Shown in pieces: positions 1,614-34,881 of a stretch of 40,530 nucleotides of DNA (position 1 is its first letter; each line of letters opens with the position of its first letter). The stretch spans positions 1-40,530 of the forward strand of contig JAAWSG010000016.1 of assembly GCA_022801435.1 (NCBI GenBank), written 5' to 3'. The position numbers and the translations under genes are program-made. The notes beneath the pieces are model-generated. The model was not told the DNA's origin. It made no database searches and saw only the letters and a list, made by a program, of their open reading frames with translations. This stretch comes from Lawsonibacter sp. (lineage in GTDB: Bacteria; Bacillota; Clostridia; Oscillospirales; Oscillospiraceae).

Positions 1614-1657
1614 AAAGCGGTATCTGCTCTTTCAAGAACAGATACCGCTTTTCTTGC
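1614..1657. terminator. Bidirectional terminator at the end of the phage-like cluster
   Basis: A 12-bp stem (1615-1626 with 1639-1650) has T-rich flanks on both sides: TTTATTT reading minus and TTTTCTT reading plus. It would stop transcription of the phage-like cluster on the minus strand and of the DUF624 fragment on the plus strand. Confidence 0.8.
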
Positions 1658-1685: not shown

Positions 1686-2249
1686 TTACTCCACGCAGCG
1701 TTCCAGTCTCTCCCAGGACATTCCGAGGATTTCGATTGACCTCCAGGTGGGGAACTTATTCTCCAGCAGGCTCCAGATCAGATACCAGAACCGGTACACG
1801 ATCTCCAAATGGGCAGGCAGGATGTCCTCCACGATCTGCCTGATCTCCTCAAACCCCTCTGGCTGTCCCACGATACCCGGGAAGGAGACCTCCACCTGAT
1901 TGACCCCCGCCTCCGCCACCCAGGCCGGCAGTCCGCAGCCCGAGATGGTATTGTTGATCTCCCCCTGGGTAAAGCTGTCCCCGCCGATCCGCAGCAGGGC
2001 GGCCAGAGCGGCGGCCAGCTGTCTGGGCTGAGCGGCCACCGGCCTGCGGGCGAAGAGCCGGGCGATGTTCTCCAGGCCCCAGCTCTCCGCCGTAGCCAGC
2101 CCGCTCTCCCGGTGCGCCTCCTCCAGGAGGGCCGACACGCCGTCCAGGATCTCCCCCTGGGCGTCCAGCTCCCCTCCGTTGAAGGGGGCCTCCAGGTCAT
2201 AGATCCCCAGCGGCCGGAGCAGCTGTCTCAAATTCTGCGCGGTACTCAT
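1686..2249 (-). CDS. Phage baseplate/tail protein, XkdU (DUF2313/YmfQ)-like
   Basis: The 187-residue product opens with 'LRQLLRPLGIYDL', the N-terminus usual for the XkdU/YmfQ family of contractile-tail phages, and carries a later 'VEVSFPG' and 'EDILPAHLEIVYRFWYLIW' like the family's C-terminal region. In PBSX- and Mu-type phages this protein follows the gpJ-like baseplate protein and completes the baseplate before the fibre genes. Here it overlaps the gpJ-like gene by 4 nt (ATGA) and is the last gene: no fibre, holin or lysin follows, only a terminator. Assignment rests on N-terminal pattern and gene order. Confidence 0.75.
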   Translation of the reverse strand: MSTAQNLRQLLRPLGIYDLEAPFNGGELDAQGEILDGVSALLEEAHRESGLATAESWGLENIARLFARRPVAAQPRQLAAALAALLRIGGDSFTQGEINNTISGCGLPAWVAEAGVNQVEVSFPGIVGQPEGFEEIRQIVEDILPAHLEIVYRFWYLIWSLLENKFPTWRSIEILGMSWERLERCVE

Positions 2250-3301
2250 GTCATCTCCTCCACGCTCAGGCTTCCCAATCTGGGGAGCACGGCCTGTCCC
2301 GCGGTGATGTCAGCGGCGGGGGAGAGGATATGGTAGTTGGCCACCCCCTCACAGTGGAAAATCAGGTCCCCCAGCCCGGCCCGCAGCACATCCTCCCCCA
2401 GCCGCGCCCCGGTGAACCAGCCCCGCAGCGCCTCCTCCACCTCTCCGCGAACCTGGGCCCCGTCCCAACCCGGCTTCGCCCTCACCCGGACGGACAGGTC
2501 AACGCTCACTGTCTCGGGGGCCCGCACCTGCACATCCACCGCGATCTCCCGGCGCTGCTGAAAGTACTGTCTCAGCTCCTCCAGCAGCTCCTCTCCGGGC
2601 AGGCCGGACGGGGTGGAGACCACCACATCCACGGTCCCCTTTCCTCTGGGCCGCGGGATGACCGCCGCCCCGGCCACCTGGTCGAAGGAGAGGGCCCCCT
2701 GCTCATAGAAGGCGGCGTTGGCCCCGTTGGGCAGGCGGCGGAAGGAGTCCAGCACCCGCTCCCGGAGGGACTCGTCCTCCTCCTCGTCCGCGCCGCCGGA
2801 GCATCCCTGGGGGTTGGAGCAGGAGGCAATGCCGAAGGGGGCCACCGCCATCACCAGGATGGTATCCGCGGAGACGTTCCCCGCTGTCCCCGGCTCCAGG
2901 GCCCGGACGGGCACATCGGCAAAAAGGGCTCCGGCCTCCAGCGTTCCGACCCGGGTGGTCTCAAAGCGGACCATCCCCGCCGTCATACACACGGTCCCCT
3001 TTGGGATGCTTCTGGGCAGGTTGGAGGCCTCCCCCGGGGTAAAGCGCACCACCCCCTCGGCCTGGACCGCCGGCTTCCGGGTCAAGCCTCTCAGCTGGGC
3101 GTGCTGGTCCAGGTACTCCCCCTGGGCGGTCTGGGGGAAGGCCTGCCGGACCACCCACTCCGCCTGGACGTACAGCCCATAGACCTGAGCGGCCAGGGCG
3201 TACATCCGGGCGGACAGGTCTGTTCCCCCTCTGGGCTCCAGCCCGGTCCGGGTTCCGAAGGCGGCAAGCAGCTCCTGATAGATCTCCTCAACGGTTTTCA
3301 A
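2246..3301 (-). CDS. Phage baseplate J-like protein (XkdT-like)
   Basis: The 351-residue product has the Baseplate_J layout: an N-terminal helical part with 'GTDLSARMYALAAQVYGLYVQAEWVVRQAFPQTA' and 'YLDQHAQLRGLTRKPAVQAEGVVRF', a beta-rich middle with 'IPKGTV', then 'ESLRERVLDSFRRLPNGANAAFYEQGAL' and a C-terminal domain. These are hallmark stretches of gpJ/XkdT. The length is normal for the family. The protein forms the baseplate wedge of a contractile tail. It starts 31 nt after the gp25-like gene and overlaps the XkdU-like gene by 4 nt. Confidence 0.92.
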   Translation of the reverse strand: MKTVEEIYQELLAAFGTRTGLEPRGGTDLSARMYALAAQVYGLYVQAEWVVRQAFPQTAQGEYLDQHAQLRGLTRKPAVQAEGVVRFTPGEASNLPRSIPKGTVCMTAGMVRFETTRVGTLEAGALFADVPVRALEPGTAGNVSADTILVMAVAPFGIASCSNPQGCSGGADEEEDESLRERVLDSFRRLPNGANAAFYEQGALSFDQVAGAAVIPRPRGKGTVDVVVSTPSGLPGEELLEELRQYFQQRREIAVDVQVRAPETVSVDLSVRVRAKPGWDGAQVRGEVEEALRGWFTGARLGEDVLRAGLGDLIFHCEGVANYHILSPAADITAGQAVLPRLGSLSVEEMT

Positions 3302-3332
3302 CGGTGTTCCTCCTCACTGCGGCAGTGTTTTC

Positions 3333-3692
3333 TCAGCTCCAGACTCGGGGCAGGTCCAGCTCCACGGTCAGCGTCTCCCCCTGCCACTCCAGGGAGGCGT
3401 TCAGCCGGCCCTGGGTCCCCGTCTGGGTCAGCTCCACCGAGCGCACTATGATCTCCTGTTCCTCCTCCAGCGCCTCGGCCACATACTGCACGGCCAGGGC
3501 CTGACGGGCGGAGGGTTTTGTTTGTCCCAGCTCGTGGAGGCGGCTTCCCAGCCGGGGCAGGAAGGGCAGCCCGCCCCGCCGGGCGGTGAGCCGGAAGAGG
3601 ACCCGGGCCAGCACCTCCTCCCCGCCGGACAGGCCCACGAACCCGCCCACTCCGTCGGGCACATAGTCGCCGCCGGCCAGCTTTCGTTCCAT
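3333..3692 (-). CDS. Phage baseplate wedge protein, gp25/W-like (XkdS-like)
   Basis: A 119-residue protein directly before the gpJ-like gene, the usual place of the lysozyme-fold gp25/W wedge protein. It contains 'GGEEVLARVLFRLTARRGGLPFLPRLGSRL' and 'AEALEEEQEIIVRSVELTQTG', matching the family pattern of a buried N-terminal helix and a strand-rich end. ATG 3692 follows an AGGAGG-like site. Function: wedge component tying sheath initiation to the baseplate. Assigned on motif pattern plus order. Confidence 0.75.
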   Translation of the reverse strand: MERKLAGGDYVPDGVGGFVGLSGGEEVLARVLFRLTARRGGLPFLPRLGSRLHELGQTKPSARQALAVQYVAEALEEEQEIIVRSVELTQTGTQGRLNASLEWQGETLTVELDLPRVWS

Positions 3693-3704
3693 TCTATTTT
3701 CCTC

Positions 3705-4097
3705 CTAAGCCAGCATCTCGCCGACGATCTGCTGGATGTATGACTTCAGGGTCTGTCCGTTGACCCAGATGGGGCCGTTCAGGTCCAGCCGCCGCCCCAG
3801 CCGGACCGAGGCAGCTCCGCCGCCTCCGGTGATCTGGACCTCCCCTGGCAGAAGCCCGCCGCCTCCCTGCCGGACCCCCAGGATATAGGGGGACTCCCCC
3901 TCCGTCCCGGCCTTGAGGACCAGCACCTTCTCCCCCGCCGCCGGTCTCCAGCAGTAGCCCCCGGGGCCGTACACCTCCAGCCCCCGCCGCTCGCCCCCCA
4001 GGCTGACCCCCGCCGGGTCCCCTCCCAGGGTGACCTCTCCCAGCTCCGCCGCCGGCTCCCGCACTGGCAGCTCCCGTCGGCGCTCCGATGTCCACAT
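3705..4097 (-). CDS. Phage baseplate spike/assembly protein V-like
   Basis: The 130-residue product has a beta-rich central OB-like region ('GLEVYGPGGYCWRPAAGEKVLVLKAG', 'SPYILGVRQ') typical of gpV-type baseplate spike proteins, then a Gly-rich segment and a C-terminal 'GPIWVNGQTLKSYIQQIVGEMLA'. It is shorter than stand-alone P2 gpV (about 210 residues). It begins at ATG 4097 with a clear GGAGGTG site and lies about 93 nt after the gpD-like hub gene. Position between hub and wedge genes supports a spike role. No terminal iron-binding HxH spike motif is visible. Confidence 0.65.
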   Translation of the reverse strand: MWTSERRRELPVREPAAELGEVTLGGDPAGVSLGGERRGLEVYGPGGYCWRPAAGEKVLVLKAGTEGESPYILGVRQGGGGLLPGEVQITGGGGAASVRLGRRLDLNGPIWVNGQTLKSYIQQIVGEMLA

Positions 4098-4190
4098 GGG
4101 TGTTCACCTCCAATTCCGAATATTTCCGCTCCGTTTCCCTTTTGTATACAGGGAAGCGGCTTATGGTGTCCCTGCCGCTGTCCGGATTTT

Positions 4191-5141
4191 CTACACCACC
4201 AGCTCCGGCGGGGCCAGCTCCAGCCTGCTCCAGCGGCCCGACTCATCCTGTCCCACCGTGACCTGGACCGCCCGGTACTGGCCATTCCAGTGGAAGGCGT
4301 CCCGCTGGACCCGGACCAGGTCCCCTGGCCAGGCGCAGAAGGGCTGCGCGACGGTGATCTCCAGCCGGCAGCGCTGTTCCTCTGACCGCTCCAGCTGGAA
4401 CTGTCCGGAGTAGCGCATTGCCTTATAGCTGCTCCGGGCGGGCATCGTGACCACTCTTCTGGCCCGTCCCCCGGCGGCCAGGAACCCGGCATTGGTCACC
4501 GTCTCGGTCCTGCCGCTCCACCGGTCCCGGACCAGCACCTGGGACAGCACCCCGTATCTCCGGTCCCTGCGGGTAAGGGCGGTGACGGGGGAGGAGCCGT
4601 CCACCACCCGCTCGGTCCCGTTCTCCCACCCGGAGAGGACCAGCCGTCCCATCCGGTCGAATCTGGGAGCCACCCCGCCGTAATACTGGGCGAAGTCATG
4701 GACGACAGACCACTCGCTGCTCCCCGCGGCCACGGAGAAGCCCGGAACCGGGGGGAGCGCTCCGCCCGGCGCGGTCTCCACGCCGTAGGGGGCAACGTGG
4801 TCCCGGATGATATCCGCCTGGGTCGCGGAGAGGTAGTCCTGCCCCAGAGCCTCATTGTCCAGCAGCAGGGCGGCCATTCCCCGTCCGGACAGCTCCAGCA
4901 GCCTGCCCTGGGCGTTGAGGGCAACCTCGCACTCGTCCACCACCCCGGTAAAGACCCGCTCCCCGCCGTACATCGCCAAAAAGCCGGTACACTCCTCCGG
5001 CCGGACGGAGTTGTCCCCGTCCCAGGGGCAGCGCAGCCAGAAGCTGTCGCAGGGGGTTCCGGAGGTGTACTCCATCCGCCAGCACACCGCCTGGGGGAGC
5101 CGCCACCGCAGTCCGGAGGGGCTGGTCACATAGGCAGTCAC
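4191..5141 (-). CDS. Phage late control gpD/XkdQ-like baseplate hub protein
   Basis: I start this 316-residue protein at GTG 5141, which overlaps the stop of the LysM gene (GTGA) and has an AGGAGGTG site upstream. Features: an N-terminal beta domain ('FTGVVDECEVALNAQGRLLELSGRGMAALLLDNEA'), a middle 'IIRDHVAPYGV' and a long beta-rich tail ('ARRVVTMPARSSYKAMRY'). The pattern 'LELSGRGMAALLLDNEA' is what XkdQ/gpD-type hub proteins show. The hub sits at the centre of the baseplate and binds the tube and spike. Gene order (LysM protein, hub, spike, wedge, J, U) is that of PBSX. Confidence 0.82.
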   Translation of the reverse strand: MTAYVTSPSGLRWRLPQAVCWRMEYTSGTPCDSFWLRCPWDGDNSVRPEECTGFLAMYGGERVFTGVVDECEVALNAQGRLLELSGRGMAALLLDNEALGQDYLSATQADIIRDHVAPYGVETAPGGALPPVPGFSVAAGSSEWSVVHDFAQYYGGVAPRFDRMGRLVLSGWENGTERVVDGSSPVTALTRRDRRYGVLSQVLVRDRWSGRTETVTNAGFLAAGGRARRVVTMPARSSYKAMRYSGQFQLERSEEQRCRLEITVAQPFCAWPGDLVRVQRDAFHWNGQYRAVQVTVGQDESGRWSRLELAPPELVV

Positions 5142-5707
5142 CGCACCCGCACCTCCTGTCCCACCCGGATAAGGTTGGGGTTTTTGATCTGGGGATTGAG
5201 GGCCACCAGCTCGGGGACAGTCCGCCCGTACCGTCTGGCCAGCTCCCACAGGGTCTCCCCGGCGGTCACGGTGTGGTAGGCGGCGCCGGAGGAGCTTTGC
5301 GCCGCGCTCTCTCCGCTCTCCTGTCCGGTCTCCTGAACCGCCAGCCCGCTGTAAGTGCCGTTGTCCTCCCAGAAGGCGAAGGAGTAGCGCACATAGTCCG
5401 GTCTGGGCTCCTGCTCCAGGCGGAGGGAGACGAAATAGGCGCTGGACACCTGCCAGAGGGGGTGGACCAGCAGGCCCGGCCCTCCCTGGTAGAAGACGCT
5501 GGCCAGCTGTCCGAACTGTCCGTAGGCCCCCTCGCCGGCGAACTCCCCCTCGCCCTCCATCACCCGGTTGGTCCGTCCCAGGTCCTGGAGCTGGTACAGG
5601 CCGAAGGGGGTTTTGTGGACCGCCATTTTTCTCTGGTAGTCGATGGAATACACTCTGGGGTTGTGGGGCCAGGTGTAGCTTTTATACCGCATTGGGGAAA
5701 GGGTCAT
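5138..5707 (-). CDS. LysM-domain tail/baseplate protein (XkdP-like)
   Basis: The 189-residue product ends in one LysM domain (about residues 144-189: 'YHTVTAGETLWELARRYG', 'LNPQIKNPNLIRVGQEVRVR'). The N-terminal 125 residues resemble the tube-binding part of XkdP-like proteins ('PRVYSIDYQRKMAVHKTPFG', 'GEGEFAGEGAYGQFGQL'). In contractile-tail phages this protein links tube, tape measure and hub, with LysM thought to contact the hub or the cell wall. It overlaps the hub gene by 4 nt. Confidence 0.82.
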   Translation of the reverse strand: MTLSPMRYKSYTWPHNPRVYSIDYQRKMAVHKTPFGLYQLQDLGRTNRVMEGEGEFAGEGAYGQFGQLASVFYQGGPGLLVHPLWQVSSAYFVSLRLEQEPRPDYVRYSFAFWEDNGTYSGLAVQETGQESGESAAQSSSGAAYHTVTAGETLWELARRYGRTVPELVALNPQIKNPNLIRVGQEVRVR

Positions 5708-5721
5708 CCAACTCCTCCTCT

Positions 5722-6501
5722 CTAGTACAGATAAAATCCCCCGTCATATCTCCGGCTGTCCCGGCGGAAGGCCCGGTCCACCAGCTCAGCCCGGTCCAGC
5801 TCTCCGGCGGGGGAGGAAGCCCGCGCCCCCGGGCCTGTCCAGATGGGCGGCGCGGTCTCGTCCACGGGGAACGGAGCCCGCCCGTCCCGGGACCATGTTC
5901 CGGCGCTCAGGTCAGACCCGCCCGTCTGTCTCAGCGCCGCGCCCGGTCCCGGGATGGAATTGGCCGCCCGTTCCAGCCGCTCCAGCTCCTCCAGGAGCGG
6001 AACCTGCCCTGTCCGGCGGTCCAGCGCGTGTTCTCTGTCCGCCGGCACACTGTCCCACGGCGTGTCTGGTCCGGGCAGCGGGGCATCCCTCTCCGGGAGC
6101 GGCCCACCGGGTCCCGGCCCTTCCCCCAGCCCATGGAGCACCGGGGTGAACCCCAGCTCACCGTATGTCCGCAAACCGTCCTCCATCTCCAGGGAACCCG
6201 CCTCCGGAGGGACGCGCTCCCGCGCCGCCGGTCCGCCCATCCGGCCCCCTATTCTCTGAGAACCCGGGGCGAGATCCGGCCCGCCGTATGCGCGCAGCCC
6301 GTCCTCCATCTCCAGGGGAACCAACTCCGGCCCCGCCAGCCCGTCCCCCATTTTCTGGAGGTCCGGCCCGCCCAGGGCAGGTCCCCCTTCCTCGACTGGC
6401 ACACCGCCCCACGGCTCTCCTGGAACACTGTCCAGCCGCCGCAGTGCCCGGCGCAGGGCGTCCTCATTTTCCTGTCCCTGGAGCTCCAGATAGTCGGTCA
6501 C
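5722..6501 (-). CDS. Gly/Pro-rich repeat protein in the tape-measure position
   Basis: I do not recognise a family. The 259-residue product starts at GTG 6501, overlapping the chaperone extension by 4 nt (GTGA). It has a short charged N-terminal helix (residues 1-25), a low-complexity Gly/Pro/Asp/Arg-rich middle with imperfect repeats (about 48-62, 63-79 and 104-120, around 'LEMEDGLR'), a helical stretch ('LLEELERLERAANSI', 169-183) and a C-terminal 'DRAFRRDSRRYDGGFYLY'. It sits exactly where contractile-tail phages carry the tape-measure gene, between the tail chaperone and the LysM protein. It is far shorter than any usual tape measure and has no long coiled coil or membrane helices. It may be a degenerate replacement or an adaptor. 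Confidence 0.7.
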   Translation of the reverse strand: MTDYLELQGQENEDALRRALRRLDSVPGEPWGGVPVEEGGPALGGPDLQKMGDGLAGPELVPLEMEDGLRAYGGPDLAPGSQRIGGRMGGPAARERVPPEAGSLEMEDGLRTYGELGFTPVLHGLGEGPGPGGPLPERDAPLPGPDTPWDSVPADREHALDRRTGQVPLLEELERLERAANSIPGPGAALRQTGGSDLSAGTWSRDGRAPFPVDETAPPIWTGPGARASSPAGELDRAELVDRAFRRDSRRYDGGFYLY

Positions 6502-6791
6502 TTCTCATCCCTCCCGCACAGCTGAGCGAAGCGCGCCGGGTCGAAGGCGGAGTTGACCATCCCCTCCCCCAAACCGGCAGGCAGTCCGCACACGGGGCAG
6601 CGCTCCTCCATCACCCTGCTCCGGCAGCTGGGGCACAGGCGCTCCAGCTCCTCCTCCCGGTCCAGCAGGGCATTGACCAAACACCACAGGTAGTCCCGCC
6701 CCTTCATCGCCCGCGCCCGGGGTTCGGTGGGCAGGGCGTGGAACTGGCGCAGCACCCGCCACCGCAGCCGCTCCCCCGGGTTGGCGCTCAA
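6498..6791 (-). CDS. Tail-chaperone extension ORF with zinc-ribbon, reached by -1 frameshift
   Basis: A 98-codon frame without a good start of its own: the only early candidate is TTG 6791, inside the upstream stop region and without a ribosome site. It is in the -1 frame relative to the preceding ORF and joins it through an A AAA AAA heptamer at 6794-6800, giving a fusion of about 211 residues. The product contains 'MKGRDYLWCLVNALLDREEELERL' and two Cys pairs (CPSC, CPVC) that form a zinc-ribbon signature. This architecture (short chaperone plus -1 extension before the tape measure) is the conserved gpG/gpGT or gpE/E' arrangement of tailed phages. Confidence 0.7.
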   Translation of the reverse strand: MSANPGERLRWRVLRQFHALPTEPRARAMKGRDYLWCLVNALLDREEELERLCPSCRSRVMEERCPVCGLPAGLGEGMVNSAFDPARFAQLCGRDEK

Positions 6792-6803
6792 TTTTTTTTT
6801 AGC
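6788..6803 (-). promoter_or_regulatory. Programmed -1 ribosomal frameshift site
   Basis: The minus strand reads G CTA AAA AAA AAT TGA in the zero frame. Codons AAA AAA after CTA make an A AAA AAA heptamer (6794-6800) immediately before the stop. A -1 slip re-reads AAA (6794-6792) and then TTG AGC GCC, entering the downstream 98-codon frame. Sequence after the site is very GC-rich and could fold; I did not establish a specific stimulatory hairpin. Confidence 0.7.
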
Positions 6804-7132
6804 TTCTCCAACCCCTCCCGGCTGATCTCGGGTCCGGGATTTTCGCTCCGGCTGAACTCGCTCCAGCGGGCGGCGAGGGAGGCGATCTCCTCCACCGTCA
6901 GCCCGGCCAGCGCCGCCTGACCGCTGGGGAACACCGGCTCTCCGGACTGCTCATGCTCCAGGGCTCTGGCCAGCAGGCAGGCGTTGGAGCACAGGGCCCG
7001 TTCCCGCTCTGTCTAAGCCAGCTCCGCCGCCTCCCGCCGGGCCTGGAGCACCTCCAGGGCGGACAGCAGGCGCAGGCGCATCCCGTTTTCCAGGGGGAAC
7101 CTGTCCCGTCCCGCCAAAATAGAGCCTTCCAC
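6788..7132 (-). CDS. Tail assembly chaperone, upstream frame, interrupted by an in-frame TAG
   Basis: Reading from GTG 7132 (3 nt after the tube stop; weak GGGGGTG site) the frame gives 39 residues ('VEGSILAGRDRFPLENGMRL...'), then TAG at 7013-7015, then 74 further sense codons ('TERERALCSN', 'LTVEEIASLAARWSEFSR', 'EKLKKN') to TGA at 6788-6790. The downstream part is coding-like, with good third-position GC, and ends in the slippery run. CAG to TAG is one transition, so the likely ancestral frame is 114 codons. Position right after the tube gene fits the XkdN/gpG-type tail chaperone. GTG at 6928 region ('VFPSGQ') with a GGAG site is a possible internal restart. The amber could be a mutation, a readthrough codon or a sequence error. 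Confidence 0.6.
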
Positions 7133-7134
7133 TG

Positions 7135-7524
7135 CTACACCCCCGTTTCGATCCGCCGGGAGGCCACCAGCGTCACCTTCTCCAGCACCATACTGCCCAG
7201 GGTGGCGCTCTCCTGGATGGAGCTCCACTGACAGCCGGCATAGATGATCCTCCGGTCCGGCTTACAGATGACCAGAGAGAAGCCGGACATGGCATAGAAG
7301 TCGATGCCGTCCCGGATGGCCTCATCGGTGGCGTACAGCCGGGTAAGCTCAATCACATGGCTGGCCGGACCGGGGACAGCGGCCACCGGCTCCTCCTCTC
7401 CGAAGGCCTCCACGGCGATGCTGTTTTTGGAGGTCCGGGCGGTGTAGCTCTGGACCACCGCCACCCGGACCCCGTCCACCTCCAAATAGATGTCGCTGCT
7501 GGTGGGAAACCCTGCAATACTCAA
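7135..7524 (-). CDS. Phage tail tube protein (XkdM-like)
   Basis: The 129-residue product follows the sheath gene and has the size and pattern of contractile-tail tube proteins: 'MSIAGFPTSSDIYLEVDG', a central 'ASHVIELTRLYATDEAI' and 'FSLVICKPDRRIIYAGCQWSSIQES' with a beta-rich end 'LEKVTLVASRRIE'. It forms the inner tube through which the cargo passes. An AGGGGAG ribosome site precedes ATG 7524. The 120-nt space to the sheath gene contains duplicated hairpins. Confidence 0.82.
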   Translation of the reverse strand: MSIAGFPTSSDIYLEVDGVRVAVVQSYTARTSKNSIAVEAFGEEEPVAAVPGPASHVIELTRLYATDEAIRDGIDFYAMSGFSLVICKPDRRIIYAGCQWSSIQESATLGSMVLEKVTLVASRRIETGV

Positions 7525-7540
7525 ACAAACTCCCCTCTTT

Positions 7541-7623
7541 CCCTCAAATTTCTCCTCCCCCGTCCGGGGGAGGAGCTGTCTTTCTTCCCATCCCTCAAAT
7601 TTCTCCTCCCCCGCCGGAGGGAG
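7541..7623. repeat. Duplicated hairpin element between sheath and tube genes
   Basis: A 22-nt unit is present twice in direct orientation (7541-7562 and 7592-7613, 51-nt period). The first copy folds with its 3' neighbour into a perfect 10-bp GC stem with a 4-nt loop (7552-7561/7566-7575). The second copy makes a weaker, bulged stem to about 7623. No T-run follows in the direction of transcription, so it is more likely an mRNA stability or processing element than a terminator. Confidence 0.7.
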
Positions 7624-7644
7624 GCGCGCTCTTTTTTCTGGCCC

Positions 7645-8703
7645 CTACACCGAGATATGGGCGGTGAGCCAGATCTGGTTCAGTCCATGGGCGGCGGCGA
7701 AGGAGAAGTCCACCAGGCATCGGGTGGGGTCCGTGCTGTCCGCCGTCACGGACACGCTGTCATAGCCGGTGATGATCTCCCGGGCCAGCTTATTTTCCAG
7801 TTCAAGGATAACCTGGGCCCGGATGGCGCTTCGGCTCTGCGGGGTATTTTTGGCTCTTTGGAACTTGCTGCGCAGGGCGTCCCGGAGGCTGGGGATGACG
7901 TTGTCCACGATGCGCACCATTGCCAGCTCTCTCCAGGTGGCGTCCGCCGCCCCGCCGGTGGTGGTCCTGGTCGTGACCCCCCGCACCACGCTCACTCTGC
8001 CGCTCAGGCTCTCCGCCGGGGTGACGCCGCCCAGGATGAGCACGTCCAGCTCCCCGTCCCGGTACTGGCCGTCCAGTCCGGGCAGGCCGCGCAGCTCCGC
8101 CCCTCCCAGGGGGACAGCGGGGTCCTGTTCTCCGGCCAAGACCCCCGCGATGGCGGCGGCCACGGTCAGGCCGGACAGGGCTTGACCGCTCCGGCTCAGC
8201 CCTCCCGGCGCGGCCAGCACCACCCGCTCGTGGTTGATGGCCTTAGCCCGGGTGACCAGCTCCTCCACGCTCTCCTCCGCGGCCCCAGCCACCACGGCGA
8301 CGCGCTCCCGCCGGGCCTGGGAGGCCTGTACCACGCTGTCCCGCAGCTTCTGCTGCACCGCCAGCCCGGTACTGCCGCACAGCACCGCCGCCAGGTCCTC
8401 CGTTCCGGCCAGCAGCTCGAAGGCGGTCTCATAGTCCTCCTCTCCGGCGGCAGCCACCGCCGCCACGCCCCCCGCGCCATTCTGGAGGGCCAGCCGGATC
8501 AGCTCCGCCATTCCCTCCTCTCCGTCCGAGCCGAACAGCTCCACCGCCTGGTCATAGCTGGTGACCAGCTGGAGTTTTCCCGCCTCCGCCTTGGTGCTGA
8601 CCCCGGCCAGGCCCACCAGTCTTCCGCTTCCGCCGCTGCTGGCCACCGAGGACGCGTCATAGGAGGAGTAGACCCCCGGACGCTGATGTACTGTCACACT
8701 CAT
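7645..8703 (-). CDS. Phage tail sheath protein (XkdK-like)
   Basis: A 352-residue contractile sheath protein. It starts with the typical 'RPGVYSSYDAS', contains a variable middle domain ('NGAGGVAAVAAAGEEDYETAFELLAGTEDLAAVLC') and ends with the conserved sheath C-terminal region ('ELAMVRIVDNVIPSLRDAL', 'NTPQSRSAIRAQVILELENKLAREIITGYDSVSVT', 'VDFSFAAAHGLNQIWLTAHI'). The length matches short XkdK-type sheaths. It overlaps the preceding gene by 4 nt. Its presence makes the tail contractile rather than flexible or short. Confidence 0.93.
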   Translation of the reverse strand: MSVTVHQRPGVYSSYDASSVASSGGSGRLVGLAGVSTKAEAGKLQLVTSYDQAVELFGSDGEEGMAELIRLALQNGAGGVAAVAAAGEEDYETAFELLAGTEDLAAVLCGSTGLAVQQKLRDSVVQASQARRERVAVVAGAAEESVEELVTRAKAINHERVVLAAPGGLSRSGQALSGLTVAAAIAGVLAGEQDPAVPLGGAELRGLPGLDGQYRDGELDVLILGGVTPAESLSGRVSVVRGVTTRTTTGGAADATWRELAMVRIVDNVIPSLRDALRSKFQRAKNTPQSRSAIRAQVILELENKLAREIITGYDSVSVTADSTDPTRCLVDFSFAAAHGLNQIWLTAHISV

Positions 8704-9203
8704 GCTTGCAATCCACCTCTCAGCTCAAAATCTAAAAATACGCCGCCTGTTTCGCCGCAGGTACACACCCAGCATCCGCACACCGCCTGGGCGCCGCGCC
8801 GGAGCAGCCGTCCGCTCTCGTCGTACCCAATCTCCCCGCAGGAGAACTCCTGTACGTTCAGTCCCTCGGGACCGCCCTCCAGCAGGGCCCCGGCCATGGC
8901 GTCCAGGGCGGACTGCATCCCCTCCCCGCCCAAACGCAGGGGGACATAGAGGTCCAGGCCCAGGGTCAGCTCCGCTCTTCTGCCAAAGCGCTCCTCCCAC
9001 CGTCCGGTTTCCGGGTTGTACCGCTCCCCCAGGTAGTCCTGAAAGCCCCCCGGCCCCATCCGGCAGCCCCGAAGGGAGACCAGCACCTCGGGCCGGTCCA
9101 GCTCCCGCGGTCTCTCGGGCGGCCAGGCGGTACGGGCCCTCACCCCTTTTTCCCGAAGGTAGCGCGCCATCTCCTCCCGGACCTGTTCCAGGCCAACGCT
9201 CAT
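8700..9203 (-). CDS. Putative tail-completion/terminator protein
   Basis: A 167-residue protein from ATG 9203, which overlaps the upstream stop (ATGA) and has a GGAGGG site. Upstream in-frame codons exist but would overlap the previous gene more. It contains 'QVREEMARYLREKGVRARTAWPPER', 'VLVSLRGCRMGPGGFQDYLGERYNPETGRWEE' and 'LGLDLYVP', and three Cys near the end ('CGCWVCTC'). Position just before the sheath gene is that of the tail terminator that caps the tail for head joining. The family is assigned by position only. Confidence 0.55.
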   Translation of the reverse strand: MSVGLEQVREEMARYLREKGVRARTAWPPERPRELDRPEVLVSLRGCRMGPGGFQDYLGERYNPETGRWEERFGRRAELTLGLDLYVPLRLGGEGMQSALDAMAGALLEGGPEGLNVQEFSCGEIGYDESGRLLRRGAQAVCGCWVCTCGETGGVFLDFELRGGLQA

Positions 9204-9520
9204 CCCTCCGCCTCCAATCCGGGGCAGAGCACCGCCCACCAGTGGGGGCAGACGGGGTCACCTCTTTTATGGGCGGCCTGCACCCGGAGCTGCCGGTTGT
9301 TCCAGACCACCACCGTATCCGTGTCCAGGGGCCGGCCGGCGGGTCCCAGGTAGAGGAACCTCTCCCGCCGCTCCACCCCTCTGGGGGAGGGCCGCTCCTG
9401 TCCGGTCTGCTGGGGGGCGGGCTGGAGGAAGGCGTTGAGGGAAACCCGCTCCTCCCCGCTGACCAGGGTGACGGTCTGGCCGTACTGGCGCAGCAGGCCC
9501 TCCCAGACGCGCCCCATCAC
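9200..9520 (-). CDS. Putative head-tail joining (head closure) protein
   Basis: A 106-residue protein beginning at ATG 9520 (or the next ATG), overlapping the connector gene by 4 nt and the following gene by 4 nt. Beta-rich composition ('LLRQYGQTVTLVSGEERVSLNAFLQP', 'RERFLYLGPAGRPLDTDTVVVWNNRQLRVQAA') resembles small stopper/minor capsid proteins that sit between connector and tail terminator. Assigned by size and order; no catalytic motif. Confidence 0.55.
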   Translation of the reverse strand: MMGRVWEGLLRQYGQTVTLVSGEERVSLNAFLQPAPQQTGQERPSPRGVERRERFLYLGPAGRPLDTDTVVVWNNRQLRVQAAHKRGDPVCPHWWAVLCPGLEAEG

Positions 9521-9867
9521 CCCCGCACCCCCTGGAAGGAGAAGCTCCCCCGGTCTCTCAGCCAGGGCTCCAGCAGCCGCTCCGCCTGGGCGGACAGCCC
9601 GCCGTCCCCGCCGCCTCTCATCCGGAGGGTGATGTCCCCGGCAGTAAAGTACTCCACCTGTCGGGTCCCCGCGGTCCGCTCCAGCCCCTCCACCGCCAGC
9701 ATCGCGGCGGCCAGGGGGAAGGCGGAGCCGCAGTTTTGGGGAGAAACCCCGGGGCGGAGCCGTCCGGTCAGCTTCTGCTGCGCGGCCTGGGCCAGGGGGC
9801 GGAGGAGCTCGTCCTCACCCTCTCCGGCCCCCAGGCTATGGCACAGCTTCAGGATCTCCTCCAGCAT
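9517..9867 (-). CDS. Putative head-tail connector protein (gp6-like)
   Basis: The 116-residue product from ATG 9867 (GGAGGTG site overlapping the end of the capsid gene) begins with a helical 'LEEILKLCHSLG', has a helical middle ('LLRPLAQAAQQKLTGRL') and 'EYFTAGDITLRMRG' followed by 'LSAQAERLLEPWL'. This all-helical small protein after the major capsid gene is the expected place for the gp6/YqbG-like adaptor that binds the portal ring. Order-based assignment. Confidence 0.6.
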   Translation of the reverse strand: MLEEILKLCHSLGAGEGEDELLRPLAQAAQQKLTGRLRPGVSPQNCGSAFPLAAAMLAVEGLERTAGTRQVEYFTAGDITLRMRGGGDGGLSAQAERLLEPWLRDRGSFSFQGVRG

Positions 9868-9868
9868 C

Positions 9869-10882
9869 TCACACCTCCAGCACCCGGCTGGCCTTCTGGA
9901 AGATTTTAGCAAAACCGCTGATGCTGGTGATGGCGGCCCGCTCCAGCTGCCGGTCGATGAGCTTGTCGTACTCCACCATCACGTCCCCGCTCTGGACCAT
10001 CTCCAGGGCGAAGCGTCTGTCCAGGCCGATAGCGGTCCCGGCGGGCAAAACCCCGGTGCGCAGCAGGTTGGCCCCCAGCGGTGTGGTCAATCTGCCCGTC
10101 CCCTGGAAGTTCAGGCCGGTGAGGGGGTTCTGGAGCTCAGGCAGCTTGAGCAGCCGGACCATCATATCCCCGGAGACCAGCAGAGCGTTCATCTCGTAGG
10201 GGTCAAATTTCGCCCAAAAATCCACCAGGTCGTCATAGGTCAGGGTGCCGGACTGGTTTGTTTTGTCCACCTCCGCGGCGTTGTCGTTGCCGTCTCCCAG
10301 GACCAGGACGTTGACCGCGTCCTCCAGCTGGGTCCGGGCCATATGGGCGCCGATCTGCCGCAGGGTGACTGAGAACAGGTCCAGCTTCTGATACCGCACC
10401 GCCTCATAGCTGGCCACCAGCATCCGGCCCCGCTTGCGGAGGCGGACCAGACTGCTCTGGACCTGGATGGTGGTTGCGGGGATCTCGGCCCCCTCGTCCA
10501 CGGTGTGGAGCTGCCTGCTCTCCCCGCCGGCCTCCGCGGTGATGGAGCGGTAGTCCATCCCGTCGAAGCGGGTGACGGCGGCGGTGATCTGGGGGAGGAT
10601 GTTGGCCTCCTCCATCCCCTGCCGCACCGAGCGGGCGATGTACTCGGGAAAGAGCACGGCGGCGTCGGCGGTGCGGAAGAACTTCTCCACCACGTCGCTC
10701 CCCGGGCCCTTCACCTTGATGTCGAAGCGCTTGAGCTGCCGCTGATAGGCGTCCAGCCCCTCCAGGGCGGTTCCTCTGTACTGCTCGCTGGGGTCCAGCC
10801 GCTCCAGCACCTGGCCAAAGCTGCTGTCCGCCTCCTGATACATCCCCTTGTCCAGCTTCAGGCTGTCATAGTAAAACGCCAT
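9869..10882 (-). CDS. Major capsid protein (HK97-fold, phage-like)
   Basis: A 337-residue protein with HK97-fold capsid features: 'DVVEKFFRTADAAVLFPEYIARSVRQGMEEANILPQITAA', an extended beta part ('ATTIQVQSSLVRLRKRGRMLVASYEAVRYQKLDLF'), a helix with 'IGAHMARTQLEDAVNVLVLGDGN' and a C-terminal 'LDRRFALEMVQSGDVMVEYDKLIDRQLERAAI'. It builds the icosahedral shell. No separate scaffold gene lies upstream. ATG 10882 follows an AAGGAG site. The decoration-like and protease-like genes precede it. Confidence 0.9.
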   Translation of the reverse strand: MAFYYDSLKLDKGMYQEADSSFGQVLERLDPSEQYRGTALEGLDAYQRQLKRFDIKVKGPGSDVVEKFFRTADAAVLFPEYIARSVRQGMEEANILPQITAAVTRFDGMDYRSITAEAGGESRQLHTVDEGAEIPATTIQVQSSLVRLRKRGRMLVASYEAVRYQKLDLFSVTLRQIGAHMARTQLEDAVNVLVLGDGNDNAAEVDKTNQSGTLTYDDLVDFWAKFDPYEMNALLVSGDMMVRLLKLPELQNPLTGLNFQGTGRLTTPLGANLLRTGVLPAGTAIGLDRRFALEMVQSGDVMVEYDKLIDRQLERAAITSISGFAKIFQKASRVLEV

Positions 10883-10917
10883 TTACAACACTCCTTCTCG
10901 ATATTTTTGGCCTGTTT

Positions 10918-11265
10918 CTACAGGCACACCACCGCCGCGCTGTCCGAAGCCGCGCTGACCACCAGCGCCCGCACGCCCTGGCCCTCTCCGGCCGCACGGA
11001 CCCCGCCGCTGCCGTCCGCCGCCAGCTCGGCCCAGCCTGGGGACAGCTTTTCGCTGGTTGGGACCTCCACAAAGCCCCGCACCTGCACCGCGCCGAAGCC
11101 CGCTCTGGGCTCCAGGGCCACCCCGCAGAAGAGGTCGCCGCTCTCGCAGGGCCCTGCCTGTCCGTTCCCGGTGAGCTTGACCACCTGGCCGCCTTTCACC
11201 CCCTCCTGGACCGCGAAGGTGGCCACCACCGCGCCGATACCGCCAAAGGAAACACGATCTGCCAT
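10918..11265 (-). CDS. Putative capsid decoration/stabilising protein
   Basis: A 115-residue Gly/Val/Ala-rich beta protein ('MADRVSFGGIGAVVATFAVQ', 'GQVVKLTGNGQAGPCESGDLFCGVALEPRAGFGAVQVRGFVEVP') directly before the capsid gene. This position and the strand-rich, charge-poor make-up match small head-decoration proteins of the D/DUF2190 type that lock the mature shell. The start has an AGGAGG site. No motif proves it. Confidence 0.6.
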   Translation of the reverse strand: MADRVSFGGIGAVVATFAVQEGVKGGQVVKLTGNGQAGPCESGDLFCGVALEPRAGFGAVQVRGFVEVPTSEKLSPGWAELAADGSGGVRAAGEGQGVRALVVSAASDSAAVVCL

Positions 11266-11331
11266 ACTGAAAAGACCTCCTTGTTCGATTTCCCCCGTCC
11301 GGCCTGTTGTTCCAGCGCCGAACGGAAAGGT

Positions 11332-12222
11332 TTAAATGAGAAACGCCTCGTCCCGCTCCGGACGCTGTCCCGCATCCCGCTCATAGCGCAGCTGGGTACT
11401 CAGGGGGAGCTGGCTCCCGGCCTGCCGGGCATAGGACTTGGCCAGCGCCTCCAGCTCCTGGAGGGAGAGCTTGTCCGCCAGGGACTGTACCGCCTCCCGG
11501 TCCAGCTCCCGGTCGGCCAGCAGGGCCAGCCGGACGGTCTCCCGCCGCAGGCCGTCCAGGTATTTCCGTCCCAGGGCGGCCTCCTCCTCCAGCCGCTCCA
11601 GCCGGGCGTTCCGGGGCTGCCCCGCGGACTTGACCACCCCCGCCATAGGCTGAGCGGGGACCGCCACAAAGGAGAACTCATAGGCGTCGCTGGCCCCCTC
11701 CAGGCTGGCAAAGCACAGCTGTCCGCCGTACCGCTCCCCCTTTTGATGGCCGCACGCCTCCGGGTCCCCGCCGCAGATGGAGCACACCCTTCGCTCCACG
11801 GCGCAGCCCACGCTGACCTCCTTTTTGATGCCCCCCTCGATTTCCGCGATAAGGGTCTCAGCCCCGGCGGTCCGGACCATATAGGCGTACCCCTTGAGCC
11901 AGCAGTACCCGTCCCCCGCCCGGGTGAGGCGCTTCGGCTCCCGGACCACCTCGGTTTTGTAGAGCCGGGCGGTCTGTCCTGCGGCGGACCACTGGTGGTC
12001 GAAGAGCCCGCACTTGCCCACGAGCAGCCCTGCCAGCTCCTCCAGGGTTTTGGCCGGAAAGCGCTCCAGATCCCGGTCGATTTCGTTGTCGCACAGCCGC
12101 ACGGCGAAGGTATAGACCTCCTCCGGCCGCATTTCCCGCCGGGCCAGGGCGGCGATCTGGTCCAGGTCCTCCTGGGGGATTGCCTGGGGCAAATCGGGCT
12201 GGGCTGTTTTATAGATTTTCAT
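11332..12222 (-). CDS. Putative capsid maturation protease/scaffold with Cys-His cluster
   Basis: Starts at ATG 12222, overlapping the portal stop (ATGA) with an AAGGGAG site, giving 296 residues. It lies between portal and capsid genes, the usual place of prohead protease and scaffold. Regions: 'VYTFAVRLCDNEIDRDLERFP', 'LAGLLVGKCGLFDHQW', 'CWLKGYAYM', 'EGGIKKEVSVGCAVERRVCSICGG', 'CGHQKGERYGGQLC', 'AYEFSFVAVPAQPMAGV', then a helical C-terminus (from about 215) that could serve as scaffold. 'SVGC' and 'EFSFVAVPAQP' resemble the Ser and 'vslv..p' regions of S78-type proteases. The CxxC...C-G-H cluster suggests bound zinc. Confidence 0.6.
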   Translation of the reverse strand: MKIYKTAQPDLPQAIPQEDLDQIAALARREMRPEEVYTFAVRLCDNEIDRDLERFPAKTLEELAGLLVGKCGLFDHQWSAAGQTARLYKTEVVREPKRLTRAGDGYCWLKGYAYMVRTAGAETLIAEIEGGIKKEVSVGCAVERRVCSICGGDPEACGHQKGERYGGQLCFASLEGASDAYEFSFVAVPAQPMAGVVKSAGQPRNARLERLEEEAALGRKYLDGLRRETVRLALLADRELDREAVQSLADKLSLQELEALAKSYARQAGSQLPLSTQLRYERDAGQRPERDEAFLI

Positions 12223-13361
12223 GTATCCAACTCCCTTCTCAGCTTTTCCGCCTGGGCCCGGTAGAGCTCCGCTCTGGCCTCCTCCACCAGGTCCTGCAAA
12301 TTGATGTCGTCCCACTGGAGCTCCACCTGGATGTCATAGCCGCGGAGGGCCAGCCACAGCTCGGCGATCCTCCTGAGCGCCGGCTCCACCTGGCGGCGGA
12401 TGGCGGTGATCTCGCTGGTGAGCAGGTCGGCCTGCTGGACGCTCATCCGCTCGGTAGCGGACCAGGACAGCCCCAGCATAAAGGGGGGGATGCCGGTCCG
12501 GGCCACCAGCTGCTCCAGGATCTGCCGCACGGGGACCTGGCTGTCCAGCACGGGGGCGTCGGCGCCGATGACCTGGATATCCACGTCCCCCACCGCCACA
12601 AAGTCCCGGACGGTCCCCTCCCGGCCGGCCTGCATGGCGGCGGACCACTCCCCGGCCACCTGGCGGCAGCGCTCCTGGGCGGAGACCCCGTCGTCCTGAC
12701 CCGGCCTGCACACCACGGCGAAGCGCAGGCAGCCCGCCCGCTCCCAATTTTGACCGGTAGCCTGAAAGATTTTCAGCAAAATCCCGGTCAGGAAGGGCAT
12801 GGAGCGCAGCAGCGAGACCCCGTAGGGCGCGTCTCCGGTGGGCTGGAAGGGGGTAAAGAGCAGCAGCTCCTGCCAGGGCAGCTCCTCCGACTCTCCCGCC
12901 CCCCGCAGGCACAGCCGGAAGCTCAGCGGGTCCTCTCCCTGCTTCACCTCCACCTGTTCCGGGTCGGCGCACAGCACCGCGGCGATGTCCCGGCCGTCCC
13001 GGGTGAGCACCACCTCCCCCAGCCCCTGTCCGCAGGTGAACAGGTCGTCCAGATACCGGTCCAGGAAGGACTGTACCCCCTGCTGGCCCCAGCCGGTGTC
13101 CACCGTCCTCCAGAACCGGTCCAGCTCCCTCTGGGCTCCGGGGTCCTGGCACTGGACGGACGCCCCGCCGCACAGCCGCACCAGCTTCCAGATGGCGGCG
13201 TCCACAATGGGGACCCCCTCCCGGATGGCCCGGTAGAGCCCCATCTCCCCGGGCCGGAGGGGGACGTACCGCTCCAGCGCCCCGAAGGGATGTCCGCCCC
13301 CCTGCCGCACCTGGACCACCGGCGGCGGGGATTTTGGGTGTTTTTGTTTCCACCACTTCAT
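12219..13361 (-). CDS. Phage portal protein
   Basis: A 380-residue portal protein: 'EMGLYRAIREGVPIVDAAIWKLVRLCGG', 'FLDRYLDDLFTCGQGLGEVVLTRDGRDIAAVLCADPEQVEV', then 'WERAGCLRFAVVCRP' and the conserved late region 'QILEQLVARTGIPPFMLGLSWSATERMSVQQADLLTSEITAIRRQVEPALRR', characteristic of phage portals (PF04860/SPP1 type). It forms the dodecameric vertex through which DNA is packed. ATG 13361 has a GGGAGG site. It follows TerL by 33 nt. Confidence 0.9.
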   Translation of the reverse strand: MKWWKQKHPKSPPPVVQVRQGGGHPFGALERYVPLRPGEMGLYRAIREGVPIVDAAIWKLVRLCGGASVQCQDPGAQRELDRFWRTVDTGWGQQGVQSFLDRYLDDLFTCGQGLGEVVLTRDGRDIAAVLCADPEQVEVKQGEDPLSFRLCLRGAGESEELPWQELLLFTPFQPTGDAPYGVSLLRSMPFLTGILLKIFQATGQNWERAGCLRFAVVCRPGQDDGVSAQERCRQVAGEWSAAMQAGREGTVRDFVAVGDVDIQVIGADAPVLDSQVPVRQILEQLVARTGIPPFMLGLSWSATERMSVQQADLLTSEITAIRRQVEPALRRIAELWLALRGYDIQVELQWDDINLQDLVEEARAELYRAQAEKLRRELDT

Positions 13362-13394
13362 GATGTACCTCCCGTGTTCTGCACATTCCCTGGG

Positions 13395-14645
13395 CTAAAA
13401 GGCGCTCCGCTCCACGCACCCCGCAAAGAAACCGTTTTCCGGCTGTTTCCCGGCCACCGTCGCGGCGAAGTAGCGGATCTCGTCCATGGCGTGGTCGTGT
13501 TCCTTTTTGGGGCGGTCCTGTCCGTCCTCCCGCTCCTCCCACCGGTAGAGGGAGAACTCCCGCGCCGCGTCCCCGCAGCCCCTGCAAATGACCAGTTTCT
13601 TCTCCTTCAGCAGCCTGGCGGTCAGCCGGATGCCCGAGAGCACCTCGTTGTCCGCCCTGCGCACCCGCCAGCCTTTTCTGCGCAGCGTCTCGCAGAAGCT
13701 GGCCGCCGACGGGTCGGCCACCACGGCGGTGACGGTCCTGCCCCCGGCCAGTCTCTCCAGGTCGGCGGCGTACTCCTCGTCGGTCTTCTGCCTTCTCTCC
13801 CGGCGGGCGTCGTAGTAGTACTCGGCCACCCGGTACCACACCCCGTTCCGCCATCCCCACAGCCCCATGGAGGTGGGGTTGACCGTGCCGTAGTCCACCG
13901 AGATGTGCCAGTTCTCCAGCCCCTCCCCGGGCGGGTTTTGGAGGAAGCTCTCGTCGAAGAAGTCATAGATGAGCCCCTCCGCGGCCACCCACTCCCCCAG
14001 CACGAACCTGCGGTAGAAGGCCCCCTGGAACATGGTCTGGTAGCGCTGGCGCACCTCCGGGGAGAGTCCGGGGTTATCCTCCATAGTAAAGGGCAGGCGC
14101 AGGGCGTTTTTCTCCTCCGCCTTGAGGACCCACTCCCGATAGAACCAGTGGGCGGGGGACTCCGGGTTGCAGGAGAACCAGAGCCGGCTTCCCTGCACCG
14201 AGCACCGGGCGGCGGTCTGCTCCACGAAGGAGCGGGGCATCAGGGCGGCCTCATCCAGCAGGGCCCCGGCCAGCGTGATCCCCTGAATGAGGGCGGCGGA
14301 CCCCTCGTCCTTTCCTCCGAAGAGGTAGAAGGTATTTCTTCTTCTGCCCAAAGAGACGGTCAGCAGGTTTTTAGAGCGTTTTTGTTCACACCGCAGCCCC
14401 ATTCCCTCCAGCAGGGGGATCAGCTCGTCCAGCAGGTTGCGCTGCAGGGAGGATATGGTCCGTCCGCACAGGGCGAAGCTTTTTTGGTGGAAGGAGCACA
14501 TCCCCCAGCAGAAGAAGGACAGCCCGGTACACAGGGTCTTCCCGCTGCGCACCGCCCCGTCGCAGATAATGGCCTGCCTGTCCTGGTCGGGGGAGCCGGG
14601 CCGCCACCAGGTGAGCACTTTCCGCTGTTTTGGAGAAAAGGTCAT
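13395..14645 (-). CDS. Terminase large subunit (PBSX/XtmB-like)
   Basis: The 416-residue product from ATG 14645 (overlaps the TerS stop, ATGA) has an ATPase Walker A 'GAVRSGKT' (residues 30-37), Walker B 'ALLDEA' with Asp130-Glu131, and 'WFSCNPESPAHWFYREW', the motif III/coupling region of PBSX-type terminases. The C-terminal nuclease region has 'ISVDYGTVNPTSMGLWG', 'VVADPSAASF' and 'DEIRYFAATV', so metal-binding acids appear present. It packages DNA into the head. It looks intact, which matters because many remnant elements lose it. Confidence 0.92.
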   Translation of the reverse strand: MTFSPKQRKVLTWWRPGSPDQDRQAIICDGAVRSGKTLCTGLSFFCWGMCSFHQKSFALCGRTISSLQRNLLDELIPLLEGMGLRCEQKRSKNLLTVSLGRRRNTFYLFGGKDEGSAALIQGITLAGALLDEAALMPRSFVEQTAARCSVQGSRLWFSCNPESPAHWFYREWVLKAEEKNALRLPFTMEDNPGLSPEVRQRYQTMFQGAFYRRFVLGEWVAAEGLIYDFFDESFLQNPPGEGLENWHISVDYGTVNPTSMGLWGWRNGVWYRVAEYYYDARRERRQKTDEEYAADLERLAGGRTVTAVVADPSAASFCETLRRKGWRVRRADNEVLSGIRLTARLLKEKKLVICRGCGDAAREFSLYRWEEREDGQDRPKKEHDHAMDEIRYFAATVAGKQPENGFFAGCVERSAF

Positions 14646-14941
14646 CCCTCCTGTCCCTCCATCGCCTGGAGGAAGCGCTCCACCTGTTCCTCGCCGCCCC
14701 GGTCCACCGCGTCCAGCAGCCGCTCCAGCAGCCGGGCCCGGTCGGCGAATTTCAGCTCGATCACCCCGTTGCTCCCCCGTTTGAACTCGGTCAGGGCGTC
14801 CAGGTCCAGCCGGTCCAGCCCCTGCCAGTCCTCCTGCCCCACGCAGGCCAGCCGCACCGCGTCCTGCGCGCCTGCGTTGGCCAGGGCCCACATCCGCCGC
14901 AAAATCTGCTCCCGGTTTGGGAGCTTTCCTGTCTTAGCCAC
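14642..14941 (-). CDS. Terminase small subunit (putative)
   Basis: I start at GTG 14941 because an AGGAGGG site lies 6-7 nt upstream; longer readings have no site and extend into a non-coding-looking region. The 99-residue product ('AKTGKLPNREQILRRMWALANAG', 'LTEFKRGSNGVIELKFADRARLLERLLDAV') is mostly helical, precedes TerL with a 4-nt overlap and has the usual helical DNA-binding plus oligomerisation pattern. The family is not certain; order supports the role of DNA recognition for packaging. Confidence 0.65.
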   Translation of the reverse strand: MAKTGKLPNREQILRRMWALANAGAQDAVRLACVGQEDWQGLDRLDLDALTEFKRGSNGVIELKFADRARLLERLLDAVDRGGEEQVERFLQAMEGQEG

Positions 14942-25522: not shown

Positions 25523-25598
25523 GCTAGTGTAGCTCAGCTGGTAGAGCAGCTGATTCGTAATCAGCAGGTCAGGTGTTCGAGTCACCCCACTAGCTCCA
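25523..25598 (+). tRNA. tRNA-Thr (anticodon CGT)
   Basis: 76 nt with an encoded CCA end. The acceptor stem GCTAGTG pairs with CACTAGC, followed by discriminator T and CCA. The D-arm is AGCTCAGCTGGTAGAGC. The anticodon stem CTGAT/ATCAG carries loop TTCGTAA, so the anticodon is CGT (reads ACG, threonine). The T-arm has GGTGTTCGAGTCACC. It is a single gene with its own promoter and terminator. Confidence 0.95.
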
Positions 25599-27879: not shown

Positions 27880-27906
27880 CCCAGGTCTGCCGGGGAATTT
27901 TTTATA

Positions 27907-28087: not shown

Positions 28088-28105
28088 CACCGAGCAGGAA
28101 GGGGT

Positions 28106-34604: not shown

Positions 34605-34613
34605 TTGTTGAAA

Positions 34614-34880: not shown

Positions 34881-34881
34881 A

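Follow-up and report, generated by a model that had tools for sequence, protein, structure and literature searches.

We analysed a 40,530-base stretch of DNA from Lawsonibacter sp. (contig JAAWSG010000016.1 of assembly GCA_022801435.1), referred to below as the window. The window is a single contig (C48) of a 2.45-Mb genome that is 81% complete, and its positions 1686-14941 are occupied by one tight operon of about 13 kb, whose 20 coding parts all lie on the minus strand and run from the small terminase subunit (TerS) to the baseplate. This cluster is not a fading prophage. Instead, it very probably represents a domestication of phage particle genes, a reading that is strongly supported because the cluster is found in single copy, keeps the same gene order, has a tree congruent with that of its hosts, is under purifying selection and has no match outside the order in the class-wide sample. 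A first-pass annotation of the window had already proposed that the particle genes were kept by selection, and the same findings support that proposal strongly. In addition, we consider it likely that a contractile-tailed phage was domesticated once, long ago, and has been kept as a DNA-packaging particle resembling a gene transfer agent (GTA). The anatomy of the cluster, its vertical inheritance, the selection acting on it and its conserved catalytic residues are read directly from the sequences and are described first.

Distribution, inheritance and selection

Of 300 same-family genomes, 110 have the portal gene (counting the own genome; 50 of 106 genera), and among the 188 good ones the number is 82. 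There is one match per genome, except in two genomes with two pieces, and the identity of the best piece outside the own genome is 51-79%; two of these portals have an internal stop and a few are partial or split. A portal profile search across the order matched 43 of 295 genomes, which belong to six families (the same family and five others), and the same kind of search in a second family, f26, matched 86 of 197. The class-wide sample of 381 genomes contained seven with the portal, all within the order, and none outside it. The host order of the cluster is Oscillospirales. GTDB contigs hold at least 563 relatives of the portal, the best 80 of which were kept for the analyses of GTDB contigs; judging from record titles, these 80 include Flavonifractor, Pseudoflavonifractor, Flintibacter, Lawsonibacter, Intestinimonas and Oscillibacter valericigenes.

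For the comparison of gene order, 60 same-family loci, one to a few per genus, were taken from the 109 other carriers. Order and spacing are nearly constant over these loci, with two exceptions. All 12 core genes are present in 53 of the 60, and 626 of the 636 frames in those 53 loci have 85% or more of the median length. Broken copies in relatives, which the first-pass annotation had named as evidence that would speak against its proposal, are a minority. In L042 and L056, which belong to one genus, the genes for the small capsid protein and the major capsid protein have moved to a place between the large terminase subunit (TerL) and the portal.

Congruence with the host was assessed on 59 of 81 loci from six families, two genomes with a split RpoB being excluded and the remaining loci not being selected. 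The cluster tree was calculated from TerL, portal, the phrog_16951 protein and capsid (1425 columns), and the host tree from the central part of RpoB (694 columns). Cluster distances correlate with RpoB distances at a Mantel r of 0.84 (0.87 for the 40 same-family genomes), a value reached by none of 999 permutations, and the two trees have 37 of 56 splits in common, against a maximum of 2 over 200 label shuffles. Tail genes behave similarly: in 37 same-family genomes they have 21 of 34 splits in common with the host, the shuffled maximum again being 2. The guanine-plus-cytosine (GC) content of the TerL, portal and capsid genes also tracks that of rpoB (r = 0.97 over 59 genomes ranging from 32 to 69% GC).

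Ratios of nonsynonymous to synonymous substitution rates (dN/dS) were calculated by NG86 for nine pairs chosen by the authors, four gene-pair cells being saturated. The first-pass annotation had named ratios near 1 as evidence against its proposal; no computed cell reaches 1, and most values are low (mostly 0.05-0.6). At the level of single residues, TerL was surveyed in 80 sequences (81 were at hand, and one short frame was excluded). All 80 have the Walker B Asp-Glu and the three nuclease aspartates; 79 have the Walker A lysine, and the remaining one has a gap there. As far as sequences can tell, the packaging machinery is under selection and its catalytic residues are kept.

Gene content and packaging proteins

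The features of the cluster are listed below in gene order, with lengths in amino acids (aa). The names of the tube, the chaperone and the connectors are given by position.

14642-14941, minus strand: TerS of 99 aa, with the GTG at 14941 as its likely start (by comparison with relatives)
13395-14645, minus strand: TerL of 416 aa, with intact ATPase and nuclease residues; Pfam E-value 5e-15
12219-13361, minus strand: portal, 380 aa; phrog_30703, E-value 5e-154
11332-12222, minus strand: phrog_16951 protein, probable prohead protease by motif, 296 aa; helical scaffold-like C-terminus
10918-11265, minus strand: small capsid or decoration-like protein, 115 aa; phrog_4588, phrog_673
9869-10882, minus strand: major capsid protein, 337 aa; phrog_3922, E-value 8e-104; PF25209
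9517-9912, minus strand: connector candidate 1, assigned by position; its start codon is uncertain; present at this place in 42 of 60 loci
9200-9520, minus strand: connector candidate 2, assigned by position; present at this place in 38 of 60 loci
8700-9203, minus strand: phrog_25177 protein, 167 aa; from its position, a candidate for tail completion
7645-8703, minus strand: tail sheath, 352 aa; phrog_279, E-value 2e-45
7135-7524, minus strand: tail tube, 129 aa; phrog_27038, phrog_985 (labels without the word 'tube'); named by its position after the sheath
6788-7132, minus strand: tail-assembly chaperone, by position and frameshift; interrupted by TAG at 7013-7015
6792-6800, minus strand: run of nine A, putative -1 frameshift site
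6498-6791, minus strand: frameshifted chaperone extension; zinc-ribbon-like segment, below the Pfam cut-off
5722-6501, minus strand: tape-measure-slot protein, 259 aa, low complexity, Pro/Gly-rich; C-terminal end RDSRRYDGGFYLY
5138-5707, minus strand: LysM tail protein (XkdP-like), by profile matches
4191-5141, minus strand: baseplate hub (gp27-like), 316 aa; phrog_177
3705-4097, minus strand: spike (gpV-like), by position; weak Phage_base_V, E-value 0.07; phrog_25991 ('unknown function')
3333-3692, minus strand: baseplate wedge (gp25-like), by position; weak phrog_43 and phrog_975, E-value 2e-4
2246-3301, minus strand: baseplate J; PF04865, E-value 7e-55
1686-2249, minus strand: gpI-like baseplate protein; phrog_521
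1614-1651, minus strand: strong terminator-like hairpin of 17 pairs, after the last gene

This gene order, the single strand and the profile matches bear out the first-pass description of a real head and contractile-tail cluster. That description counted 17 frames in one direction; the direction is correct, and the number is to be replaced by 20 coding parts, of which the chaperone accounts for two. TerS and both connector candidates of the window have no Pfam or PHROG match. By profile comparison, relatives of the cluster proteins already sit in the phage protein library: phrog_30703, 16951, 27038, 25177 and 25991 are strong matches, four of these five are labelled 'unknown function', and nothing in the PHROG labels marks an order-wide domesticated element.

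From its motif pattern, we take the phrog_16951 protein to be the prohead protease. His76 and Ser137 are invariant in all 80 sequences. Neither Foldseek with a predicted model (pLDDT 79) nor sequence searching gave a significant PDB match, and the label is therefore put forward as a probable one. The protein also has a conserved set of Cys and His residues (C147, C150, C157, H159 and C170), which is unusual for a prohead protease fold. Sequence searching gave no significant PDB relative for the portal or the capsid. In L114, L116, L118, L119 and some other close relatives, all searched cluster genes were detected except that for the 115-aa capsid protein; L114 has no room for it (98 bases).

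Note that a shorter, 83-aa form of TerS (ATG at 14893) was used in the Pfam, PHROG and structure-model runs. Among six relatives of TerS, four match Terminase_2 weakly, below the threshold, and these matches are confined to positions 72-130 of 141 and do not cover the N-terminal half of the family, so that TerS appears from sequence comparison to be without this half. The TerS model (pLDDT 76) has no Foldseek match in PDB. Against a viral library, its top three Foldseek matches have E-values between about 1e-3 and 2e-3; two carry the name terminase small subunit and are 168 and 218 aa long.

Tail, lysis genes and chromosomal setting

The chaperone frame and a -1 frame join at a run of A, which is a putative programmed frameshift site. 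Runs of at least seven A after the tube gene were found in 25 of 61 loci (window included), and the run is at nearly the same place in 23 of the 61 (A7 followed by G in 18, A9 in 5). The in-frame TAG at 7013-7015, which the first-pass annotation had noticed, is present in the window; it is absent from all four same-genus loci, where the frame is open.

The absence of a tape-measure gene, also claimed at first, has to be corrected, since the slot is occupied by a Pro/Gly-rich protein with a conserved C-terminal motif. In relatives, the frame in the slot is variable, with a length of about 91-270 aa, a range that includes a few frames picked by the script in the wrong frame; in some loci the slot is apparently fused with the chaperone. 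The motif R-D/E-x-R-R-Y/F is found at the end of the slot protein in 50 of 61 loci. We infer that the slot protein is a minimal tape measure anchored by this motif.

Other families differ in their tails. The sheath was not detected by tblastn in any of 11 loci of family f23. In the three f23 loci where the tube was found, it lies just 81-145 nucleotides (nt) from the LysM gene, so that these loci have no room for the chaperone and the slot protein. Behind the head module, three f26 loci (L224, L229 and L231) have, by eye, a few small genes and a protein that resembles the hub. Nine of 20 f26 genomes (19 of them portal carriers) have any J-like match, four of these being strong and near the portal, and the tail content of f26 is therefore mixed.

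The first-pass annotation reported no lysis or fibre gene, which is right for this window and not for its relatives, some of which have holin, M15 peptidase, carbohydrate-binding or fibre-like genes. A PF05105 holin lies 12-19 nt downstream of gpI in L038 and L040; an M15 peptidase family is downstream of gpI within 143 nt in L066, L068 and L080 and at 776 nt in L072; and a CBM5/12 protein family occupies this place in L041, L044 and L045. Each of these families was identified by a Pfam scan of one member. In other bacterial families, a fibre-like protein of 153-179 aa is downstream of gpI in eight loci, and the member scanned has no Pfam match. In G074 and G078, which were chosen since a holin had been seen there, the cluster-adjacent holin is the sole PF05105 match in the genome. 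In the own genome, contig C24 (L302, 8.7 kb) has, by eye, a fibre-like frame, a holin and a peptidase-like frame together; L302 is possibly a second locus or a piece of a prophage.

The neighbours of the window cluster are ordinary chromosomal genes: a solute-binding protein gene on the left, and on the right DacF, the glycogen operon and other housekeeping genes; homoserine dehydrogenase, L21 and Obg are also present. A Pfam scan of 20 flanking frames gave no match to integrase, repressor or replication families, in agreement with the first-pass annotation. A complete temperate prophage was rejected as an explanation, as adjoining integrase, repressor, replication and lysis genes were not found in these frames. 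In relatives, the recurrent flanking families are chromosomal, lysis or binding genes, as viewed by eye and with no dedicated integrase search. The initial impression that the base composition resembles its surroundings is corrected by a cluster GC of 0.678 compared with 0.634 in the right-hand flank. A scan for SOS boxes gave a result no better than chance.

The suggestion that relatives would carry the cluster at the same locus proved true within the genus and among near kin and failed beyond them. The DacF-GlgB flank is retained in all four same-genus loci, and DacF is matched in 27 of the 80 GTDB-contig loci, some of whose contigs are too short to show it; the site is thus stable only at shorter range. 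In a further same-genus genome, G189, there is no portal match. Its contig begins 445 bases before DacF, these bases match no cluster gene convincingly, and the genome looks like a case of loss of the cluster. In f23, the cluster lies beside an HflX-like GTPase gene in five loci (L217, L218, L219, L220 and L228), and in four of these argG/argH-like genes are also next to it (names by eye). This neighbourhood is a second stable chromosomal site.

Elsewhere in the window there are a 6S RNA (27904-28103, minus strand, 64.6 bits), a tRNA-Thr(CGT) (25523-25598, plus strand) and an AT-rich stretch at 34600-37000, with a GC of 0.43-0.47 compared with about 0.6-0.65 around it. The two larger minus-strand frames of this stretch have no Pfam match.

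Function and relation to known particles

The cluster probably builds particles that package the DNA of the host itself and perhaps pass it on, and a GTA-like function is the likely one. The proposed history begins with a contractile-tailed phage, which would have been captured once in an ancestor of Oscillospirales, its head-tail operon then being inherited along with the chromosome. TerL, together with a truncated TerS, would fill small capsids with unspecific host DNA, and the very short tape-measure-slot protein would set a short contractile tail. Particles would be released by lysis, for which the genes are next door in some relatives and possibly elsewhere in this genome, and packaged DNA reaching kin would make the particle work as a gene transfer agent. 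In this scheme, random packaging, the short contractile tail, release and transfer are the steps that we infer.

Several observations weigh against this reading. The cluster is dispensable, since the portal is not matched in 106 of the 188 good genomes of the same family. Core genes are missing in seven of the 60 same-family loci (L052, L055, L058, L067, L082, L085 and L090; L058 is cut by a contig end), the portal frame is interrupted by a stop in seven of the 86 f26 carriers and fragmented in another two, and the chaperone frame of this genome contains a TAG. The cluster and host trees do not have 19 of 56 splits in common, and of 40 strong splits in the cluster tree, four are at odds with a strong split in the host tree. 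In one pair, dN/dS is as high as 0.93 (TerS, small capsid protein, connector 2), and in another it is 0.73 for the sheath and connector 1. The TerS of two f26 loci is longer, with an extra N-terminal part (by eye). No lysis, fibre or receptor gene adjoins the window cluster, and a PF05105 holin is found in three of six genomes of the genus, never at the cluster.

PBSX of Bacillus subtilis is a defective phage that packages host DNA, and elements of its type have a large XkdO-like tape measure between the chaperone and the LysM protein. Such an element, whose contractile particle only kills related strains and delivers no genes, would share with the window cluster the contractile tail, a similar tail gene order (LysM, hub, spike, wedge, J, I) and a full set of packaging genes. 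We nevertheless consider it unlikely here. The window cluster has no large tape measure of the PBSX type (the slot holds 259 aa here and 91-270 aa in relatives) and no adjoining lysis cassette, its TerS is shorter than XtmA, it is inherited vertically across several families of another order, and no toxin or immunity family was found among the cluster and flanking frames scanned. Moreover, TerS, TerL, portal, the protease candidate and capsid were found in all 20 out-of-family loci, yet the sheath in none of the 11 of f23; packaging rather than stabbing is therefore the most conserved part. We would read the cluster as a probable GTA rather than a killer. The same set of head genes, here and in those 20 loci, contradicts a headless tailocin or extracellular contractile injection system, for which the sheath, tube and baseplate would speak and whose probability we put close to nil; the first-pass argument from TerL and portal is upheld. 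A domesticated structure with a role other than transfer, such as short-range injection or a developmental structure, would fit a tape-measure slot and tail that vary greatly between families; with the packaging ATPase and nuclease residues and the portal-protease-capsid set being the most conserved parts, such a role is quite improbable.

Cryptic prophage remnants left by repeated infections of a related phage group would account for the related sequences in PHROGs and IMG/VR and for the degraded copies. This explanation is largely contradicted by the host-congruent trees of both head and tail genes, and also by the single copy, the fixed order and the absence of matches outside the bacterial order in the class sample; we rejected it on trees, synteny and single copy and give it very little credence. 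Phage collections point the same way, since only six of 50,697 phage records match the portal, five of them faecal and the sixth a Microcystis phage (30% identical). Two of the five faecal records were examined, the 'Bacteriophage sp.' scaffolds MT835508.1 (L234) and MT835769.1 (L235), and both carry the cluster within chromosomal-looking sequence, with ribosomal-protein, SecY, Rnf and other chromosomal-looking frames (by eye), and were rejected as phages. A Mexican study of faecal particles (PMC8361208) may be the source of the MT835 records. A scan of IMG/VR for close portal relatives gave 21 loci on contigs of 4.1-18.1 kb, which were rejected as complete phages.

Faecalibacterium, which we take to belong to the same bacterial order as the window host, has the one gut GTA that our literature searches returned, FpGTA (PMC12946183); apart from that paper, nothing in the literature searched pointed to this cluster. 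According to PMC12946183, FpGTA I/II of Faecalibacterium prausnitzii are podovirus-like and 10.5 kb long, and the operon is present in Faecalibacterium and absent from Gemmiger and Subdoligranulum. The accession numbers of the FpGTA portal (RCH50851) and capsid (RCH50849) leave room for one gene between them, and the resulting order of TerS, TerL, portal, one possible gene and capsid resembles that of the f26 loci L224 and L229. FpGTA is also like the window cluster in that it is chromosomal, it has no replication genes, and its lysis, fibre and baseplate genes can sit apart; its TerS has no obvious DNA-binding domain, and the short TerS of the window may be alike in this. It differs in its podovirus-like form: the word 'sheath' does not occur in PMC12946183, whereas the window cluster has a sheath. 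Compared by description and gene order, FpGTA may be a tail-reduced relative of this cluster. A 16S probe for Faecalibacterium gave two matches among 197 genomes of f26, neither of them clearly Faecalibacterium, and none among 150 genomes of f23. The alphaproteobacterial RcGTA, as described generally and in PMC12946183, is likewise a compact, vertically inherited packaging cluster with a reduced TerS and no life-cycle genes; it differs in its non-contractile tail, and the likeness is drawn from descriptions rather than sequences.

It is conceivable, though somewhat short of probable, that a single domestication at the root of the order gave rise to one GTA lineage, which kept its contractile tail in Oscillospiraceae. 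A second family would then have lost the sheath together with the chaperone and the tape measure, and in parts of a third family a head and a stub would be all that is left, in the form known from Faecalibacterium as FpGTA. If so, the window would hold the ancestral type of contractile GTA, and the cluster would be the missing operon behind the published capsid packaging of Oscillospiraceae DNA. In PMC12946183, GTA-like packaging of such DNA is reported (Onthomonas, 3 of 25 events) with no operon assigned, and the cluster is a direct candidate for that operon in gut Oscillospiraceae. Since some members of the cluster are filed as viral contigs in databases, they can mislead virome studies. Within a single lineage of domesticated particles, the cluster also provides a natural gradation of tail reduction; it is found in cultured species, and its age would have allowed it to shape gene exchange throughout a major order of gut bacteria.

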